The notes under the pieces were generated by a model, which had not been told where the DNA came from, did not search any database, and saw only the letters and a list, made by a program, of their open reading frames with translations. 64,000 nt of DNA, taken from assembly GCF_024398015.1 (NCBI RefSeq), contig NZ_CP073747.1, forward strand, positions 3,221,001 to 3,285,000, given 5' to 3'. Shown piece by piece: positions 29,987 to 39,382 of the stretch. The translations under genes and the position numbers were made by a program. Position 1 is the first letter of the stretch. Each line of letters begins with the position of its first letter. The stretch comes from Kordiimonas sp. SCSIO 12610 (GTDB lineage Bacteria > Pseudomonadota > Alphaproteobacteria > Sphingomonadales > Kordiimonadaceae).

Positions 29987-32900
29987 CTATTTACCAAGCT
30001 CGGTAGGATAAGCAGGTGCTTTCTTCAACCGAATTGGTTTATAGGTTTTCAGATCATTCAGCATTTCATCAATTGCACGATCAAGCTGTGCATCCTTGCC
30101 TGCATTCACATCCACAGGGAATAACTCAACCTCAATATCTGGTACAGCGCCCTCGTTTTCAATGCGCCATTCACCGTCAGGTGTGAAGAAACGGAAATAA
30201 GGAACCGTTACTACGCCGCCATCAATAAGCTGCGGATTTGCTGAAATACCGATTAAACCACCCCAGGTTCGGGTTCCAATTAGCTTGCCCAAGCCCATAC
30301 GCTGGAAACTGTATGGTAGGAAGTCACCACCAGAACCAGCATCCTGATCAATCAACATTGCCTTGGGGCCATAAGTTGCCACACCCGGCGTATCAAAGAG
30401 GATAGCATCCCGGTCCTTCCAGCCTGCTAAATACTCACGCGACAGAATATCCGTAATATAGTTAGCGGCCTGGCCACCACCGTTAGAACGTTCGTCAATA
30501 ATAACCGCTTCCTTATCGAATTGCGCAAAGAACATACGGTTAAAATACGTGAAGCCACCGCCAGCAGTATTCGGCACATAAACATACCCCACACGGCCAT
30601 CGGTTTTTTCTTCCACATATTTGCGGTTATCCTCTATCCAGCGCCAGTTACGAAGCTGACCATCATTTCGGATAGGTTCAACCACAACGTCACGCGTTTC
30701 ATCACCGTCAGTATTCTCGGATAAGGTCAGCGTGACCTGCTTACCAACTGTATCTGCAAAGAATGAGAAGATATTATCAGTTCCACTCAGTGTCCGACCA
30801 TTCACTGCAACAATATAATCACCAATATTGGCATCAACACCCGGTGCCGAAAGCGGTGCTACAAGAAACGGATTCCAGTTCTCTCCAGAATAGATATCCT
30901 TGATACGATATTGGCCATTTTCAATACGCAAATCAGCACCCAACAGGCCAACATTTACAGGACGTTCACGATGTGTATCGCCGCCAAATATGCGATTGTG
31001 CCCCACTTGCATTTCAGCAATCATTTCGATCATGAGTGTATTCAAATCTTCACGTCGACCGACATGGGCAACCAATGGTTTGAAACGGTCATAGACGGCT
31101 TGCCAATCAAGGCCGTGCATATTGGGATCATAGAAATATTCGGCTTCCATACGCCAAACATCATTGAATATTTGAGTCCATTCCTTACGCGGGTCTACAA
31201 ACATTCGCACATCAGTTAAGCGTAGTGGCTTGCCGCTGATTTGCTTACTTGCTTTACCAAACATCAAGCGATTGTTCGCACCCTGAACCAATAGAGTTTT
31301 ACCATCTGCGCTCATGGTGTAATTTTGAACCAAATCGAACACACGCGATGCTTTTTTCGATTTAAAATCAAAGCGCATTAATTTATGCACTGCACCCCGC
31401 GGCGAACTGGGTGGTTCGTTACTGATACCTGGCTGGATGCGCTCAATAAAGAACAAGCCACCATCTTTGGCAACTTCAAGGCTATCGTAACTTCGTTCCG
31501 CCACAGGCAAAGCAATAATTCTGTTGGTTATCCCTTCAACATGAATACTTGGTGCTTTCTTTGTTTCTTCAGTATTTTCATCAGCGCTATCGTCTTCATC
31601 CACTTCATCAGATGATTTCTTGGCGCGGTCAATCTCATCACCGGCTTCAGGTAATAATGGGGAACGACCATCATCATGGAGCACAGCAGCATAAATACCG
31701 CGGCGCAGTGGGCGTTCCTGCGTACTCAGATCAAGCCAAACCGATTGACTAGGGCCAGAGTTGGTTGAGCCCGTGAAATAAAGATACTGACCATCTTTCG
31801 AGAATGCAGGTGAACCAGCATGCACCATACCATCAGTTAACGCTGTGGTTTCCCCGCTTTCGAAACTATAGAGCATGACATCATCAAAGAAGTTCGTTCG
31901 CGGCGCAGTATAAGCAAGCCACTCACCATCCTTCGAAAGCGAGACGCTCATGGCCGCACGACGCTTCATTTTTGCAATTTGCGTACGCTCTCCACTTGCA
32001 AGGTCTATCGCGAACAAGCCAAGATGATTATCACTATAAATGATACGGTTCGCTTTTGCTGACCATTCCAGAAGATTGAAATACCCTTTATCACCAAGTG
32101 ATAGTTTGCGAACTTTCCCAATTCCTGTCTGTGGGGCAATTACGAGCGTGTGCTTCATACCCTCATCAGAAATATACGCTATTTCACCCCCTTTTGGAGA
32201 CCAAAGCGCAGACCCTTCACGAATTCCATCTGATTTTGTTAGGTTTCGAGTTGATCCCTCCTTCACAGGAACTGTAAAAACATCACCGCGCGCGGACAAT
32301 AATGCCCGCTTACCCGTTGGGGAAAGTGCAATACTTTGTACGGTACGGCTGGCATCTTTCCACTGAGGCCGAAGTTGAGGCAGATCGGGGTTAATCTTTA
32401 CATCAATATCTTTGATGCGTCCCGACCTCACATTCAATTCTTTTAAATGCCCACCGGTTTCAAAGAGGATATGGTCGCCAAATGCGCCAGCACTTCTGAC
32501 GTCCCATACGGTTTCTTTTGTGAGCTGGCTGAGTTTCTTATTTTTAGTGTTGTAACCATGAATATTCATGGCACCATCAGCACGGTCAGAAATAAAATAA
32601 ACCGTATCCTTGAGCCACATTGGATTTGTATCATTTACAAGGTCATGTGGTATTTTCTCTAACGCACCATCCTTGGGTGAATAAATCCAAATTGGCGGAG
32701 TAGCCCCTCCACGATATTGACGCCATCCACTCGCGCCGAAATATGCTTGCCTGTGGGGGCGATAAGCAAATCGTTCACCGTTTGGCGACCAAACGCCTTC
32801 ATATGCGAGCGCATCCATCATTTTCGTGGGATAACCACCATCGGTGGAAATATGGTATATTTGATTTGATCGACCACTTTTCACTTCACGGCGGGAGGCA

Positions 32901-33310
32901 AAAACCACTTCCTTACCGTCTGGTGTCCATCCATTCGCAGTATCTGCGCCTGGATGATATGTTAATCGCTTTGGCTGGCCACCATCAATCGAGATGACAT
33001 AGACATCCGTATTACCGTCATAATTTGCTGTAAACGCAATCTCTCGGCCATTAGGGGAAAATTTTGGTCCAGTCTCATTTGCCGCATGTGACGTTAAACG
33101 TTTTGGATTCTTTCCATTTCGGTCCGCTATCCAAAGATCCCCTGCATATACGAAAGCAATGTTGTTTTTACTGATATCAGGTTGTCTTAATAATAGTGTT
33201 TCATCTGTCCCAAATGAAGGCTGACCAAGTAAACCCACACCGCACACCAGTGCAACCATCTGAGATATTTTGCTCAATCTATTTAATTTAAACTGTTTTG
33301 AAAAAGTCAT
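29987..33310 (-). CDS. Exported tricorn-like protease, family S41
   Basis: A 1,107-residue protein from MTFSKQFKL with a signal peptide (SQMVALVCGVGLLGQPSFG). Residues about 30-400 contain repeated propeller blades typical of TolB/tricorn (FSPNGREIAFTA, WTPDGKEVVFAS, LSPTGKRALLS). A second propeller follows to about 600, with an acidic linker (DEVDEDDSADENTEE) near 580. A PDZ-like domain (about 790-860) and a C-terminal S41 peptidase domain follow. The likely nucleophile is Ser near 988 in DAGSGGDF; QVGHNRIFGGD may supply the histidine. The signal peptide suggests periplasmic peptide degradation, unlike the cytosolic archaeal tricorn. The ATG at 33310 is preferred to a codon at 33331. Confidence 0.85.
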   Translation of the reverse strand: MTFSKQFKLNRLSKISQMVALVCGVGLLGQPSFGTDETLLLRQPDISKNNIAFVYAGDLWIADRNGKNPKRLTSHAANETGPKFSPNGREIAFTANYDGNTDVYVISIDGGQPKRLTYHPGADTANGWTPDGKEVVFASRREVKSGRSNQIYHISTDGGYPTKMMDALAYEGVWSPNGERFAYRPHRQAYFGASGWRQYRGGATPPIWIYSPKDGALEKIPHDLVNDTNPMWLKDTVYFISDRADGAMNIHGYNTKNKKLSQLTKETVWDVRSAGAFGDHILFETGGHLKELNVRSGRIKDIDVKINPDLPQLRPQWKDASRTVQSIALSPTGKRALLSARGDVFTVPVKEGSTRNLTKSDGIREGSALWSPKGGEIAYISDEGMKHTLVIAPQTGIGKVRKLSLGDKGYFNLLEWSAKANRIIYSDNHLGLFAIDLASGERTQIAKMKRRAAMSVSLSKDGEWLAYTAPRTNFFDDVMLYSFESGETTALTDGMVHAGSPAFSKDGQYLYFTGSTNSGPSQSVWLDLSTQERPLRRGIYAAVLHDDGRSPLLPEAGDEIDRAKKSSDEVDEDDSADENTEETKKAPSIHVEGITNRIIALPVAERSYDSLEVAKDGGLFFIERIQPGISNEPPSSPRGAVHKLMRFDFKSKKASRVFDLVQNYTMSADGKTLLVQGANNRLMFGKASKQISGKPLRLTDVRMFVDPRKEWTQIFNDVWRMEAEYFYDPNMHGLDWQAVYDRFKPLVAHVGRREDLNTLMIEMIAEMQVGHNRIFGGDTHRERPVNVGLLGADLRIENGQYRIKDIYSGENWNPFLVAPLSAPGVDANIGDYIVAVNGRTLSGTDNIFSFFADTVGKQVTLTLSENTDGDETRDVVVEPIRNDGQLRNWRWIEDNRKYVEEKTDGRVGYVYVPNTAGGGFTYFNRMFFAQFDKEAVIIDERSNGGGQAANYITDILSREYLAGWKDRDAILFDTPGVATYGPKAMLIDQDAGSGGDFLPYSFQRMGLGKLIGTRTWGGLIGISANPQLIDGGVVTVPYFRFFTPDGEWRIENEGAVPDIEVELFPVDVNAGKDAQLDRAIDEMLNDLKTYKPIRLKKAPAYPTELGK

Positions 33311-33445
33311 TAAATTACCCTTGTGTCCCAATTATCCCCATTTTTACAGTAGACTATGCGAATAAAGACTATCCGTCCAGAAAACTAAGTCTATAATAGG
33401 GTTAATCAAAAGACTTGCGTTTTTAATACTGAAGAACGGCATAAA

Positions 33446-34897
33446 ATGACTGGTACAATTGTCCTTTTTAACCTCAATCTGCGCCTGCATGACAACGTGC
33501 CTCTTCACACTGCCGCCGCCAACGGACCGGTAATTCCTGTCTATATTTATGATAATACAATTAAAACCCGCTGGCCTTTAGGAGGCGCATCGAAATGGTG
33601 GCTTCATCAAAGCTTAAATGCATTAGCCAATGATTTAAATGCGATCGGCAGCAAACTCATCATTCGGGAAGGCAACAGCTATCTGGTATTGAAAGAGCTG
33701 ATTCAACAAACCGGATATAAAGATATTTATTTCGAGCACTCGATTTTGCCTGAGGCGTCCATTCCTGAAGATAGACTTTACAAACTATGTAAGCGATTTG
33801 GCGGAGAAGCCAGACGCTTCAGAGGGCAAACTTTATTTCACCCTTCCCAAATTCATACGAAAGATCAAACGCCGTACAAGGTCTTTACACCGTTTTGGAA
33901 TAGTTGCCTCAAGCACGAAGCAATCCCGACACCATTGCCTATTCCACATCTTCAGGCGCCAGAAAACTGGCCTGATAACATTCCCCTTGAAGACTTAAAG
34001 TTACTTCCAACCGACTTTGACTGGACGAATTCTCTGGACAAATGCTGGCAGGCGGGAGAAACGCAGGCACGCAAAGCACTCGATCAATTTGTTTCTGAAA
34101 ATATAGATCAGTATGACAATGACCGTGATATACCAAGCCTGAAACATGGGACATCAAAGCTCTCGCCTCATCTTCATTTCGGCGAAATCAGCCCAATCAC
34201 CGTATGGCACCAAGTTAAAAACGCAATTGACTTGTCCCCCTCCAAAGACAGAGGCGGCAAAGTTTTCTTAAAGGAACTAGGGTGGCGTGAGTTTTCATAT
34301 CATTTGCTTTATCATTTTAATGATCTCGATCAAGCTCCACTGAATAAAACATTCCAACATTTCCCATGGGTCAAAGACACTGGCTCACTGACGGCCTGGC
34401 AAAAGGGACAAACGGGATATCCAATAATAGACGCTGGCATGCGCGAACTCTGGCAAACAGGTTGGATGCATAATCGCGTTAGGATGATTGTTGCTTCTTT
34501 TCTGGTAAAAAACCTAAGAATCCATTGGTTGGAGGGGGCCAAATGGTTTTGGGATACCCTGGTGGACGCAGACCTTGCAAGTAACAGCGCAAGTTGGCAG
34601 TGGGTTGCAGGGTGTGGTGCGGAAGTGGCCCCTTACTTCCGTATATTTAACCCTACACTCCAGAGCAAAAAGTTTGACCCAGACGGCGAATATATTCGCC
34701 GCTATGTACCAGAGTTAAAAAAAATGCCGGACAAACATATTCACGAACCCTGGACAGCCAATCAGGATATTTTAGAAAGCGCGGGGATTAAACTTGGTAA
34801 AACATACCCACGGCCCATTGCTGACCATAAAGCAACACGGGAAGAAGCGCTAATTGCGTATCAGCAGTTAAAGTCCAGCAAGGCCTTGGTATCGTAG
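33446..34897 (+). CDS. phrB: Deoxyribodipyrimidine photolyase / cryptochrome family
   Basis: A 483-residue FAD photolyase that uses light to split cyclobutane pyrimidine dimers. The N-terminal antenna domain contains GGASKWWLHQSLNAL near 50, and the C-terminal FAD domain shows LGWREFSYHLLYHF, GYPIIDAGMRELWQTGWMHNRVRM and SASWQWVAGCGAEVAPYFRIFNP. The electron-transfer tryptophans around the FAD are present. The usual first motif WFRxDLRLxDN reads LFNLNLRLHDN here, an unusual loss of the Trp and Arg. Its stop is one base from the convergent regA stop. Confidence 0.92.
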   Translation: MTGTIVLFNLNLRLHDNVPLHTAAANGPVIPVYIYDNTIKTRWPLGGASKWWLHQSLNALANDLNAIGSKLIIREGNSYLVLKELIQQTGYKDIYFEHSILPEASIPEDRLYKLCKRFGGEARRFRGQTLFHPSQIHTKDQTPYKVFTPFWNSCLKHEAIPTPLPIPHLQAPENWPDNIPLEDLKLLPTDFDWTNSLDKCWQAGETQARKALDQFVSENIDQYDNDRDIPSLKHGTSKLSPHLHFGEISPITVWHQVKNAIDLSPSKDRGGKVFLKELGWREFSYHLLYHFNDLDQAPLNKTFQHFPWVKDTGSLTAWQKGQTGYPIIDAGMRELWQTGWMHNRVRMIVASFLVKNLRIHWLEGAKWFWDTLVDADLASNSASWQWVAGCGAEVAPYFRIFNPTLQSKKFDPDGEYIRRYVPELKKMPDKHIHEPWTANQDILESAGIKLGKTYPRPIADHKATREEALIAYQQLKSSKALVS

Positions 34898-34898
34898 A

Positions 34899-35432
34899 TC
34901 AGAGGGGTGAACGTTTAGCCAGAATACGCTGCAATGTTCGCCTATGCATATTCAAGCGCCGGGCTGTCTCTGAAACATTGCGATCGCAAAGTTCATAAAC
35001 ACGCTGGATATGTTCCCATTTCACACGGTCAGCTGACATCGGATTTTCAGGCGGCGGCGGTGTCTGCCCCGCAGGTGTTAAAAGTGCATTTTCAATTTCA
35101 TCCGGATCAGCGGGCTTAGCAAGGAAATCTACAGCCCCTGCCTTCACCGCTGATACAGCGCTTGCGATATTTCCGTACCCAGACAACATAACAACTCTGA
35201 TATCAGGGATAATTCGCCTAAGCTGCGGGACAAGATCAAGGCCATTACCGTCCTGAAGGCGCATATCCAATACAGCATAGTTAGGTTTATGCTCGCCAGC
35301 CAAAATCGCGCCTTCTTCTATTCCTTCAGCTGCAAAAACGACAAACCCCTTACGCTCCATACTCAATGTTAAACGAGTTCGATAAGCCCTGTCGTCTTCC
35401 ACAATGAGTAACTTCTTGTTTTGATTTTCCAT
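34899..35432 (-). CDS. regA: RegA/PrrA/ActR-type redox response regulator
   Basis: A 177-residue two-domain regulator. The receiver domain has the acidic pocket IVEDD (12-14), the phospho-acceptor Asp56 (VLDMRLQDGNG) and Lys106 (AKPADPD). The C-terminal Fis-type helix-turn-helix (VSETARRLNMHRRTLQRILAK) is near-identical to the pattern known for RegA homologues. With RegB it controls respiration, carbon and nitrogen genes in response to redox state in Alphaproteobacteria. It follows regB by 18 bases. The symbol is by strong resemblance and context. Confidence 0.92.
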   Translation of the reverse strand: MENQNKKLLIVEDDRAYRTRLTLSMERKGFVVFAAEGIEEGAILAGEHKPNYAVLDMRLQDGNGLDLVPQLRRIIPDIRVVMLSGYGNIASAVSAVKAGAVDFLAKPADPDEIENALLTPAGQTPPPPENPMSADRVKWEHIQRVYELCDRNVSETARRLNMHRRTLQRILAKRSPL

Positions 35433-35450
35433 CGTGCTCTATCCCTAAGG

Positions 35451-36791
35451 TTACGTCCGTTTTTCATCTTCCAACATCGCTATTGGCCATGATATCACAA
35501 CTCTAGCGCCAGGAGAGATCAATTCTCTACCGGCTGATTCAAACACTAATTGTGCCCCTGACTGTTCGAGTAAAGTTTTAGCAATAAACAATCCTAAACC
35601 TAACCCACCGTCCTTACCTGGTGTAGGTTGACGCGTAGAAACATATGGTTCACCGAGTGTTTTTAATATTTGAGGGTCAAACCCTGGCCCATCGTCTTCA
35701 ACTGATACCCAGAAGTGGGTGTTATCTTTTTCGATTGTTATATCAACGACCGAATTTGCATAACCAACTGCATTCTCGATAATATTTCTAATTGCATGGA
35801 CAAGATGAGGTAATTTTTTAATGATCAAATGATCAGTCTGATCGTTGACATGGTACTCTATCGAAACATTGCCTCGCCCTTCATGAGGGGAGGCAGCTTC
35901 ACGTATCAACGATTCCAACGTTACACGTGTGAAATGGTCTGTATTCCCTGCCCTGCGCTCTTCGCGCAACTGCGACAAAATATTTCTGCAGCGTGTTGTT
36001 TCTGAATAGATCAACTCAAGATCAGCGCGCGTTAACTCATCGCCTTGCCATGTATCGAGAAGTTCTTTAGACGCTAGCATAATTGTACCAAGCGGAGTAC
36101 CAAGTTCGTGTGCAGCAGCGGCAGCCAATGTTCCGAGCGCAGATAATTTCTGCTCGCGTTCCAACGCAATTTGAGTTGCTGCCAGGGCTCTCGCATGATT
36201 ACGCCCCTCGCTGCTAACTTTAGCCATATATACAGCAATAAATATTATTGTGAATGTGCCACCGATCCATAATCCAGCCTTGATCATAGGATGAACAATA
36301 GGCGCTTCCCCATTCCAGGGTAGGCTGTAAGGCGTGAAGGCAAGGGCTGTGATTGCTGTAATCGCTAGAAAAATGAGTGACTTGGTGCTTCGTTGCCCAA
36401 GAATACTAGCAGAAACACTTGTTGGTGCTAACAGAAGGATAGCAAAGGGATTTGCTAATCCGCCTGTAAAAAACAAAAGAAATGTCAGATGCAATAGGTC
36501 AAACGCTAGTTGCCCCGCGGCTTCTTTATCTGTCAAACGACGATTCATATCGGCTTGAAAGGATAGCCACAAATTCAATGCGGCGGATATACCAACCGCC
36601 GAGATGGTCAGATAAATCGGGACCGAGAAATCAAGAATAAAATATACAAACAGTAGGCTACTAAGCTGACCAATAACAGCTAGCCATCGAATAAGAACTA
36701 ATGTCCCCAATCGGACACGACCATCGCGATAAACATCGGCAACAGATGTATCGTGTCTTTCATACCTGTCCTGTTCTTGTATTATATCCAT
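35451..36791 (-). CDS. regB: RegB/PrrB/ActS-type redox sensor histidine kinase
   Basis: A 446-residue membrane kinase with about six transmembrane segments (40-195). The ubiquinone-binding heptapeptide GGLANPF is at residues 110-116. The H-box AAAAAHELGTPLGTI has His228, and Cys268 in SETTRCRNIL corresponds to the redox-active cysteine of RegB. The ATPase domain shows NIIENAVGYAN, DDGPGFDP and GLGLGLFI. I place the start at MDIIQEQDRYERH (36791), five bases after the ankyrin gene stop; an upstream in-frame codon at 36827 overlaps that gene. Both known redox inputs, quinone and thiol, are retained. Confidence 0.93.
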   Translation of the reverse strand: MDIIQEQDRYERHDTSVADVYRDGRVRLGTLVLIRWLAVIGQLSSLLFVYFILDFSVPIYLTISAVGISAALNLWLSFQADMNRRLTDKEAAGQLAFDLLHLTFLLFFTGGLANPFAILLLAPTSVSASILGQRSTKSLIFLAITAITALAFTPYSLPWNGEAPIVHPMIKAGLWIGGTFTIIFIAVYMAKVSSEGRNHARALAATQIALEREQKLSALGTLAAAAAHELGTPLGTIMLASKELLDTWQGDELTRADLELIYSETTRCRNILSQLREERRAGNTDHFTRVTLESLIREAASPHEGRGNVSIEYHVNDQTDHLIIKKLPHLVHAIRNIIENAVGYANSVVDITIEKDNTHFWVSVEDDGPGFDPQILKTLGEPYVSTRQPTPGKDGGLGLGLFIAKTLLEQSGAQLVFESAGRELISPGARVVISWPIAMLEDEKRT

Positions 36792-36795
36792 GCTA

Positions 36796-37383
36796 TCAAT
36801 AGGTTGCGCCTGCATCCTGCAAAGCACGTATCATACGCCGACTACGGCTAATTTGTGCATACTCCAGCGCTGTTTTACCACTAAGGTCCTGAACATTGGG
36901 ATCAGACCCCGCGTCTAATAACACCTCTACAACTCTAAACTTTCGAGCCCTTACAGCCTTCATCAAGGCTGTTTCTTGACCAATATCGGCACGGTCAGGG
37001 TCTGCATTATTTTCGAGCAACATTTTTACCTGAGCAGTGTCACCAGCAAGTGCGCGTATCATCAAAGCCGTTTCGCCGCGGTTTCTATCTGCCAAGTTTG
37101 GATTTGCACCCGCATCCAACAGAACTTTCATCATATTTCCGTTAGCATTTTTTGCTGCGATAATAATACCAGGCACTCCATCACTTCTGCGACGAGTATC
37201 AGGGGAAACGCCTTTTTTCAAAAGCGCTTGAACCTCTTTGATATCATCACGGCCAACCTCCCTGAGGAGTTTAAATTGATCAGATTGTGCATAAGCCGAA
37301 CTAAAGGTCCCCAGAGACAACAGAGTGAACATCCCGAAGGAAATTAAAAGGAAACCACGCATTTGGTTCAACATTACTTTCAT
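36796..37383 (-). CDS. Exported ankyrin-repeat protein
   Basis: A 195-residue protein with a signal peptide (FLLISFGMFTLLSLGTFSSAYAQ, cleavage near residue 33). About five ankyrin repeats follow, each with the recurring V-x-x-L-L-x-x-G-A-x-P pattern (VQALLKKGVSPDT, MKVLLDAGANPNLADRNRGETALM, VKMLLENNADPDRADIGQETALM, VEVLLDAGSDPNVQDLSGKTALEYA). It should be periplasmic and bind a protein partner. It ends four bases before regB, so it is probably the first gene of an ankyrin-regB-regA operon; a role near the sensor is inference. Start codons at 37383 or 37374 are both possible. Confidence 0.85.
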   Translation of the reverse strand: MKVMLNQMRGFLLISFGMFTLLSLGTFSSAYAQSDQFKLLREVGRDDIKEVQALLKKGVSPDTRRRSDGVPGIIIAAKNANGNMMKVLLDAGANPNLADRNRGETALMIRALAGDTAQVKMLLENNADPDRADIGQETALMKAVRARKFRVVEVLLDAGSDPNVQDLSGKTALEYAQISRSRRMIRALQDAGATY

Positions 37384-37458
37384 CCTAACAACTTTGAATT
37401 ATTTATAGTGTATACGATATAATAAAAACTAGACTGTGCGGCAATTTATCTCTTAACA

Positions 37459-37487
37459 GTGACAACTGGCAAACAAATTTCTATAAC
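37459..37487 (+). promoter_or_regulatory. Sigma-70-like promoter for senC-ycgN-ygjP group
   Basis: GTGACA (37459-37464), a 17-base spacer and TATAAC (37482-37487). Transcription from about 37494 would give a leader of roughly 60 bases ahead of the senC ATG at 37555, and rules out the GTG at 37459 as a start codon. Confidence 0.55.
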
Positions 37488-37554
37488 TACAGCCAATGAT
37501 AATGGTTCTGCCAAATTATACGAGTTAATCCTGTTCAAAAAATGGAGAGTTAGG

Positions 37555-38175
37555 ATGCAGTCTGTCCGTCTTATAGCCTGGGGCGCTGTTGTAATTGTTA
37601 TTGCGTTTCTGGGGTTGCGGGTATTAATCAATTCACCTGATGATGCTTCTTCACCGTCTCAGACGACATCCCAATCAGGGCCAGGTGGGCCTTTTACATT
37701 AATTTCCCACAAAGGTACCAAGGTATCAGATGATGATTTCCGAGGAAAACACATGATGGTTTACTTTGGATACAGTTATTGCCCTGATGTTTGCCCTCTT
37801 GAACTACAAAAACTGACCTCAAGCCTGCTTGACCTTGAAAAAGAAGGCTACGACACATCACCCATACAACCTCTTTTCATCTCGGTTGATCCTGAGCGTG
37901 ACACACCTGAAACACTTAATGAATATGTACCCTTATTCCACCCATCGATGATTGGACTAACTGGCTCAGCAGAGGAAATTGCTGACGTTGCAAAAAAATA
38001 TAAAGTGTATTTTGCCAAGCGTGAAAGCGATGATGTTGATGGGTATTTGATGGATCATTTATCCGTAATTTTCTTAATGGATCAAAATGGAAATTATCAA
38101 CGTTTGTTTACCGCTCGTGATAAGCCAGAAGACATTACCAATGCATTGAGACCTCTGTTAAAGAAAGCTGCATAA
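37555..38175 (+). CDS. senC: SCO1/SenC/PrrC family copper-binding thioredoxin-fold protein
   Basis: A 206-residue membrane-tethered periplasmic protein (hydrophobic segment LIAWGAVVIVIAFLGLRVLI, residues 6-25). It has the thioredoxin-like SCO motif YSYCPDVCP (Cys76, Cys80) and the copper-ligand histidine in MDHLSVIFLMD (His168). SCO proteins deliver copper to cytochrome oxidase. Homologues next to RegBA are called SenC or PrrC and feed redox state to the sensor. The start at 37555 has GAGAGTTAGG upstream. Its TAA overlaps the ycgN ATG as TAATG. Confidence 0.92.
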   Translation: MQSVRLIAWGAVVIVIAFLGLRVLINSPDDASSPSQTTSQSGPGGPFTLISHKGTKVSDDDFRGKHMMVYFGYSYCPDVCPLELQKLTSSLLDLEKEGYDTSPIQPLFISVDPERDTPETLNEYVPLFHPSMIGLTGSAEEIADVAKKYKVYFAKRESDDVDGYLMDHLSVIFLMDQNGNYQRLFTARDKPEDITNALRPLLKKAA

Positions 38176-38621
38176 TGGCGGATCATAAAGAAAACCCATT
38201 CTGGAAACGAAAAGCATTAACGGAAATGGACCGCGATGAATGGGAGTCACTATGCGATAGCTGTGGAAAATGTTGTCTCCACAAGCTAGAAGACGAAGAC
38301 ACTGGTGAAATATATTACACTGATGTTGCTTGTCGTTTTGTTGATAGCCAAACAATTAAATGCAGCAAGTATCTCGTAAGAAAGCGATACGTTGGCAACT
38401 GTGTAGTCATGGATGCAACCATGTTGCATCAACTTCCCTGGATGCCAAGTACCTGCGCGTATCGATTGCTTTATGAAGGGAAAGATCTGCCCGATTGGCA
38501 TCCATTGGTTAGCGGCGATCCGGAAAGTGTCCACAAAGCAGGAATTTCTATAAAGGGACGTTACATTGACGAACGGGAAGCTGGAGATTTCGAAGATCAT
38601 CTGGTTGATTGGCCAGCATAA
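38175..38621 (+). CDS. ycgN: YcgN-type cysteine-cluster protein (UPF0260)
   Basis: A 148-residue protein with the cysteine pattern LCDSCGKCCLHKLED (four cysteines near 30-37), ACRFVDSQTIKCSKY, GNCVVM and STCAYRLLYEGKDLPDWHPL, which defines the UPF0260/YkgJ-like family. The cysteines could bind iron or zinc, but the biochemical role is not established. It overlaps senC by one base, so the two are translationally coupled. This ties it to the redox cluster, though it is common elsewhere without SenC. Confidence 0.88.
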   Translation: MADHKENPFWKRKALTEMDRDEWESLCDSCGKCCLHKLEDEDTGEIYYTDVACRFVDSQTIKCSKYLVRKRYVGNCVVMDATMLHQLPWMPSTCAYRLLYEGKDLPDWHPLVSGDPESVHKAGISIKGRYIDEREAGDFEDHLVDWPA

Positions 38622-38633
38622 AAACGAGAGCTT

Positions 38634-38651
38634 AAAACCATATGTGGTTTT
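38634..38651 (+). repeat. Palindrome spanning the metallopeptidase start codon
   Basis: AAAACCA and TGGTTTT are perfect inverted copies around TATG, so the start ATG of the next gene (38642-38644) sits in the loop of a possible RNA hairpin. It may influence initiation; chance is also likely at this length. Confidence 0.3.
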
Positions 38652-39382
38652 CGAAATCAAAAACTCAAAAATCTCCTGTCACGAGTATCACTCTTAACAC
38701 CGTGACCGGGCCTATAACAATTGATGTTCGCAAAAATAAAAGAGCAAAAAAACTAATTTTGAGAATGGACACGAAATCAGGCCTTCCTGTTGTAACCATT
38801 CCCGACGGCGCAAAACAAACTCAAGTAAAAGAGTTCCTCACAAACCATATTGACTGGATTACAGATCAAACAAACATTTTTAAAAATTCATCCTTGCAGA
38901 CCGGTGACGTCATCTGTTTTGAAGGTCAGGAACACAGATTAGAATACAGTAACACCCCCCCGAGGAAAGTTTGGTTTGCAAATGACAATCAAGATAGAAC
39001 TATCATTGTTGGCGGACCAATTGATCAAGCCGGCAAACGTCTAGAAAGGTGGCTGCGAAAAACTGCCTCAGAGAAATTAACATGTGCGTCAAGCTATTAC
39101 GCTGAAACCCTCGGTGTAAACTATTCGAGAATCAGTATAGGTGACATGAAAACCCGCTGGGGAAGCTGTTCATCCAAAGGAACACTAAGGTTTAATTGGC
39201 GCTTAATCATGGCGCCACCAGACATACTCGAATATGTTGCGGCACACGAAGTTTGTCATCTATTGGAAATGAACCATTCAGACCGCTTCTGGGCGCATGT
39301 GCAATCATGTAGACCTGAGTATCAAAAAGAACGGGCCTGGCTACGAAGTTCTGGCCAAAGCCTAATGACTATTAGACTGTAA
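38642..39382 (+). CDS. YgjP-type metallopeptidase (DUF45, SprT-like fold)
   Basis: A 246-residue protein ending in a zinc-metallopeptidase domain. HEVCHLLEMNHSDRFW (near 201-216) carries the HExxH-type zinc site (H-E-V-C-H) and a third histidine seven residues on. The conserved KTRWGSCSSKGTLRFNWRL precedes it. Members are common but poorly characterised; some act on DNA-protein crosslinks or remain of unknown target. It follows ycgN by 20 bases and converges on the PBP gene with six bases between. Confidence 0.85.
   Translation: MWFSKSKTQKSPVTSITLNTVTGPITIDVRKNKRAKKLILRMDTKSGLPVVTIPDGAKQTQVKEFLTNHIDWITDQTNIFKNSSLQTGDVICFEGQEHRLEYSNTPPRKVWFANDNQDRTIIVGGPIDQAGKRLERWLRKTASEKLTCASSYYAETLGVNYSRISIGDMKTRWGSCSSKGTLRFNWRLIMAPPDILEYVAAHEVCHLLEMNHSDRFWAHVQSCRPEYQKERAWLRSSGQSLMTIRL

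Follow-up and report, generated by a model that had tools for sequence, protein, structure and literature searches.

An exported ankyrin repeat protein encoded between senC and regB in Kordiimonas: a candidate periplasmic adaptor linked to SenC

In Kordiimonas sp. SCSIO 12610, a gene for an exported ankyrin repeat protein stands between senC and the redox-regulator genes regB and regA. The window, that is, the whole stretch of 64,000 nucleotides analysed here, covers positions 3,221,001 to 3,285,000 of contig NZ_CP073747.1, and the locus occupies its positions 34899-39382, with ankyrin, regB and regA in that order on the minus strand and senC, ycgN and ygjP on the plus strand:

34899..35432, minus strand: regA, response regulator of the ActR/PrrA/RegA family, with Cys149 (NF033791, 279.5 bits)
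35451..36791, minus strand: regB, sensor kinase of the ActS/PrrB/RegB family (NF033792, 474.5 bits)
36796..37383, minus strand: exported five-repeat ankyrin gene, an open reading frame (ORF) of 195 codons (Pfam Ank_2; AlphaFold2 model)
37384..37554, unstranded: intergenic region separating the divergent ankyrin and senC genes, with one sigma-70-like match per strand
37555..38175, plus strand: senC, copper chaperone of the SCO1/SenC family, with a hydrophobic N-terminus and CPDVC (Pfam, 1.3e-48); the ORF can start at 37459
38175..38621, plus strand: ycgN, YcgN family cysteine cluster protein (NF003501, 214.9 bits), its ATG overlapping the senC stop
38642..39382, plus strand: gene for a YgjP-like metallopeptidase (PF01863, 9.1e-58)

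The family assignments at this locus are secure. Besides the SCO1-SenC and YgjP-like matches given above, a Pfam search of the window proteins returned Ank_2 at 3.6e-34 and CxxCxxCC at 1.3e-8, and RegB, RegA and YcgN all score above the cut-offs of their curated models (350 bits for NF033792 and 250 for NF033791). RegB, of 446 residues, carries GGLANPF from residue 110, matching GGxxNPF, together with the H-box and cysteine 268 within TRCRN, and the cysteine of RegA is its only one; we take GGLANPF to be the quinone site and Cys268 the redox site. The likelier start of senC is the ATG at 37555, with GGAG upstream, rather than the GTG at 37459, and the ankyrin gene would start at 37383, or at 37374 judged by the spacing from AGG.

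The ankyrin stop codon (36796-36798) is followed by only four bases (tagc) before the regB ATG at 36791, and given this short gap the ankyrin gene, regB and regA are likely to be co-transcribed. A promoter scan of positions 34800-37700 gave seven sigma-70-like matches against 5.6 (standard deviation 2.6) in shuffled sequences, which is no excess. Terminator-like sites numbered five against 2.6 (standard deviation 1.2), none of them between ankyrin and regB; on the strand of these genes, two fall within the coding part of regB and one follows regA. On the other side, translational coupling of senC and ycgN is reasonable because the senC TAA and the ycgN ATG share one base (TAATG). The observations of a preliminary description of this locus are therefore confirmed: the four-base gap, the outward-facing senC, ycgN and metallopeptidase genes, and the quinone motif and redox cysteine kept by RegB are all present in the ORFs. 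Beyond regA, a 1114-amino-acid ORF at 29987-33331, presumably tricorn-protease-like, lies close to a gene at 33446-34897, presumably photolyase-like, which converges on regA.

At its N-terminus the ankyrin protein has a basic-hydrophobic segment that closes with AYA-Q, which by eye resembles a signal-peptidase-I type site. AlphaFold2, run with ten sequences, modelled a signal helix followed by five helix pairs at a mean predicted local distance difference test score of 89.9, and the helix-turn-helix stack of the ankyrin repeat fold is found alike by Pfam, the model and Foldseek. Designed ankyrin repeat proteins dominate the 50 Foldseek matches listed (template modelling score 0.73-0.79 by model length, 29-35% identity); they share with the window protein the regular ankyrin stack only, a likeness without functional meaning. 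The protein, the single PF12796 match in the 3.5-Mb genome at E<=0.001, contains neither cysteine nor histidine. Among the 90 relatives described below (the window included), 82 lack cysteine after residue 25 of the matched stretch. In none of the alignment columns filled to at least 70% is histidine, cysteine, tyrosine or tryptophan the most frequent residue with a share of 40% or higher, and methionine reaches 54% in one such column. The lack of a common cysteine or histidine column points to a protein that binds protein rather than metal, and on this ground a role as metal chaperone was rejected.

Relatives were drawn from two overlapping samples, one of 385 genomes of the same class and one of 299 genomes of the phylum. 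The window protein alone matches 201 of the 385 class genomes at 1e-5, other ankyrin proteins included, and a profile built from 25 linked relatives matches 207 at 1e-20; carriers were defined as the 92 genomes with an about full-length profile match (E up to 1.1e-41), lower-ranking matches being excluded and G230 and G314 being counted although their matches begin at model positions 32 and 35. Gene context was compared at 90 loci from 38 families, made up of 89 carrier loci (the window included; carriers G276, G379 and G208 left out) and L034 of G137, a partial match. L034 (G137:C18:3263-3682) is an ankyrin copy beside regB at a contig end with one in-frame TAG, reflecting either a sequencing error or a decaying gene. 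In the phylum sample, whose class make-up is not given, matches at E<=1e-40 occur in 14 of the 299 genomes, all of the same class.

At 24 of the 90 loci the ankyrin gene has senC divergent and regB downstream, at 17 it has senC only and at nine regB only. These counts include three senC assignments made by hand (L052, L056, L084) owing to an over-extended ankyrin ORF; the script alone had given 22 with both, 15 with senC only, 10 with regB only and 42 others (n=89). The ankyrin gene is divergent to senC at 41 loci in 17 families, and the window fits this group of SenC-linked exported ankyrin proteins with a single domain of about 165 residues. In the phylum sample, all 12 same-order genomes with a listed match (four of them already among the 90) carry ankyrin, senC, ycgN and ygjP in order; no regB lies in their 1.5-kb flanks, and for eight of them RegB was checked in the flanks only. 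Since the arrangement recurs in other genomes, it is more than chance.

Upstream of regB on the same strand, the ankyrin gene is found at 33 of the 90 loci, from 16 families, at distances of 0.8-3.3 kb in 24 cases, about 7 kb in two and 0-10 bases in five, with two overlapping. Abutment on regB is the exception, being confined to seven loci: the window, L044, L045, L049 and L075 (0-10 bases), and L034 and L048 (over-extended ORF ends). What often stands between the two genes is presumably an MBL-fold (metallo-beta-lactamase) hydrolase, read in the same direction, together with an ABC-2 ATPase/permease pair of opposite orientation, and in L132 and L133, metagenome-assembled genomes that are the nearest named relatives of the window (ankyrin 59% identical), what we take to be a CobD/CbiB-like membrane protein. 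Because relatives have such intervening genes, the abutment in the window looks like the outcome of their loss. Viewed from regA in named organisms, with the best 80 of 590 candidate loci compared, the ankyrin gene precedes regB at 11 (L132, L133, L134, L135, L142 of Parvibaculum, L143 of Sneathiella sp. HT1-7, L146, L164 and L178 of Sandarakinorhabdus, L175, and L188 of Rhodothalassium salexigens); of these, no fewer than three (L134, L143 and L175) seem to repeat records already included in the 90 loci. No ankyrin gene was seen at the other 69, several of which are cut by contig ends. Only a minority of RegBA loci thus have an ankyrin gene ahead of regB. The preliminary description had named confinement of the pairing to a single genome as a refutation, and the pairing is not so confined.

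Two other neighbours recur. At 15 loci the ankyrin gene directly follows, on the same strand, what we take to be a cobK-like gene near other cobalamin-type genes (L076, L077, L089, L095, L096, L099, L101, L104, L105, L111, L113, L120, L122, L127, L128). At 19 loci of the clustering, a gene on the opposite strand within 5 kb of ankyrin is presumably polyhydroxybutyrate (PHB)-depolymerase-like, as at L050:7706-8929, L051:4498-5730 and L078:3169-4803.

Across the 385 class genomes, with RegB absence defined as no match at E<=1e-60, the ankyrin protein and RegB occur together in 72, ankyrin alone in 20, RegB alone in 119 and neither in 174, so that RegB is found in 72 of the 92 carriers versus 119 of the 293 non-carriers (Fisher p 2e-10, kinship and reduced genomes ignored). 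The ankyrin protein is neither present wherever RegB is (72 of 191 RegB genomes) nor restricted to such genomes. A SCO1-SenC match is found in 89 of the 92 carriers versus 199 of the 293 non-carriers (p 8e-10), and in 17 of the 20 carriers lacking a RegB match. The ankyrin-senC pair itself is kept without a RegB match in eight genomes of two families, comprising four of four same-order genomes (f2) and four of four in f40. Among loci in which an ankyrin gene was not observed, some have senC directly divergent to regB (L063, L066, L068), and in others regB faces away from senC-regA (L062, L149, L157, L172 and others); the regB loci without an ankyrin gene numbered L059-L069 stand outside the 90.

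We tentatively favour, at somewhat less than even probability, a model in which the ankyrin protein is a periplasmic five-repeat adaptor that works with SenC, or with the oxidase subunit that SenC serves, in oxidase assembly. SenC is an established copper-binding protein, required for assembly of the cbb3 oxidase according to the available text of PMC9147068 and PMC12617631. Behind its signal peptide, the roughly 165-residue ankyrin domain would fold in the periplasm and bind a protein of the respiratory membrane, SenC or its oxidase subunit being the first candidate, and could thereby help cytochrome oxidase assembly or SenC redox cycling. This genome has one Ank_2 match, one SCO match (senC) and two COX1-type genes, one of them above the ccoN cut-off. 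The locus would derive from an old alphaproteobacterial block in which pbp1A, ygjP, ycgN and senC are divergent to ankyrin, other genes, regB and regA. With the usual intervening genes apparently lost in the window, ankyrin, regB and regA could share one transcript, and the amount of ankyrin protein would then be tied to that of the redox regulator. As judged from gene order, SenC would be a better-fitting partner than a role within RegBA.

Several observations weigh against this model. In 49 of the 90 relatives the ankyrin gene does not adjoin senC, a few of these being cut by contig ends, and 40 loci lie beside neither senC nor regB (cobalamin-type genes in 17, other genes in 21, a contig edge in two). 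In four Sneathiella-type genomes (f42) ankyrin precedes regB and the best SCO match is hundreds of kilobases away, as in G041, with SCO at C1 97,549 and ankyrin at C1 678,994; G168 has a second SCO match too, its position not listed. In these genomes a gene that we take to be PHB-depolymerase-like, seen in L050 and L078, occupies the place where senC would stand. Three of the 92 carriers have no SCO match, and both co-occurrence tests are only suggestive because kinship and genome reduction are ignored. Deep support in the ankyrin tree is weak (34 of 87 inner branches under 80), and some of the 90 relatives may therefore be paralogues. Finally, the model is drawn from gene order, and as the recurrent neighbours belong to a conserved block, the linkage may be passive.

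Such passive linkage comes close in likelihood to the SenC-linked adaptor, because cobalamin-type and other genes recur at the same place and neighbours differ within families. In this reading the protein has some other envelope task, and its position is a relic of an ancient gene block in slow decay. Many unrelated genes are found there; as we name them, partly by presumption, the block members are pbp1A, ygjP, ycgN, the PHB-depolymerase-like gene, senC, ankyrin, the MBL-fold hydrolase, ABC-2 genes, cobalamin-type genes and regBA. The loci beside neither senC nor regB fit a relic, as do the differing neighbours among close relatives of one family (f103, branch support 99; f68, support 80). 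Passive linkage accounts less well for the persistence of the ankyrin-senC pair in two families in which no RegB was found, and for the SCO match in nearly all carriers.

A role as an accessory subunit of RegB, binding its periplasmic loops, modulating the kinase and possibly relaying to it a signal that originates at SenC or the oxidase, appears unlikely. The same-strand position upstream of regB, the seven abutting loci and the enrichment of RegB among carriers all speak for it. However, 20 carriers have no RegB match, and although some of these genomes are incomplete, others, such as G012 and G039, are listed as 100% complete; moreover, 119 of the 191 RegB genomes lack a high-scoring ankyrin match, and none was seen at most of the RegA loci compared. 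Since the pair with senC is kept without RegB in two families, and ankyrin precedes regB without a nearby SCO gene in f42, the protein is not a dedicated RegB subunit, and a strict RegBA subunit was rejected on gene order and occurrence. The preliminary description had tied the ankyrin protein to RegBA and suggested that it could dock a periplasmic partner, for example SenC, to the sensor. This interpretation is partly supported: the position upstream of regB stands, but with abutment so rare and the senC pair kept in genomes lacking a RegB match, 'RegBA component' is too narrow, and the docking of SenC has no direct support. Rather improbable, too, is an overlooked periplasmic adaptor of alphaproteobacterial respiration that would bind the terminal oxidase as well as SenC, detect whether electron flow or copper loading is complete, and report to RegB as the missing physical link between them.

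A helper of the AnkB/Cj1386 type, delivering haem to or stabilising a periplasmic haem enzyme (oxidase or peroxidase), is improbable: ankyrin proteins encoded beside catalase genes are reported, in the available parts of PMC7567364 and PMC10294975, to promote catalase, and haem is also needed by terminal oxidases, but the relatives share no histidine, cysteine or tyrosine column and this single-contig genome has no PF00199 catalase match, in a search that left other catalases and peroxidases aside. A catalase helper was rejected on the latter ground.

A physical link from oxidase through SenC/PrrC to RegB/PrrB has reportedly been proposed, and we know of no settled route from oxidase activity to RegB. 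Control by RegBA of respiration, photosynthesis and nitrogen fixation extends to many bacteria; in Rhodobacter capsulatus it is described in the accessible part of PMC5359404. An exported adaptor this widespread next to senC, and often in line with regB, is a candidate that can be tested for a part in assembling or monitoring the respiratory chain. The ankyrin gene, with gene-order support from many families, is a concrete one for the study of oxidase-RegB signalling.

Compared with known systems, the locus combines familiar parts in a different order. The standard-family genes of RegB/RegA (PrrBA, ActSR) and SenC/PrrC are all present; however, whereas the accessible text of PMC9147068 describes co-transcription of senC with regA and/or regB as invariable in group 1 systems, senC at this locus is transcribed divergently, with an exported ankyrin gene between it and regB. 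With Sco/PCuAC copper delivery the locus shares SenC with its CPDVC; the ankyrin protein differs in having no cysteine or histidine. The available parts of the oxidase assembly review PMC9145763 and of PMC12617631 do not contain the word ankyrin, and among the papers listed by our literature search, mostly free of subscription, none was seen to tie an ankyrin protein to RegB or SenC. In AnkB/KatB of Pseudomonas aeruginosa, Cj1386/KatA of Campylobacter jejuni and ank-katE of Leptospira, an ankyrin protein is likewise encoded beside or acts with a redox enzyme (PMC7567364 and PMC10294975, in the parts available). These systems pair with catalase, an adjacency not seen in the window genome, whereas the ankyrin gene in the window adjoins the copper chaperone gene senC and the kinase gene regB. 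Exported ankyrin proteins encoded next to redox genes are thus of a known kind, and what is new here is the neighbourhood of senC and a redox kinase.

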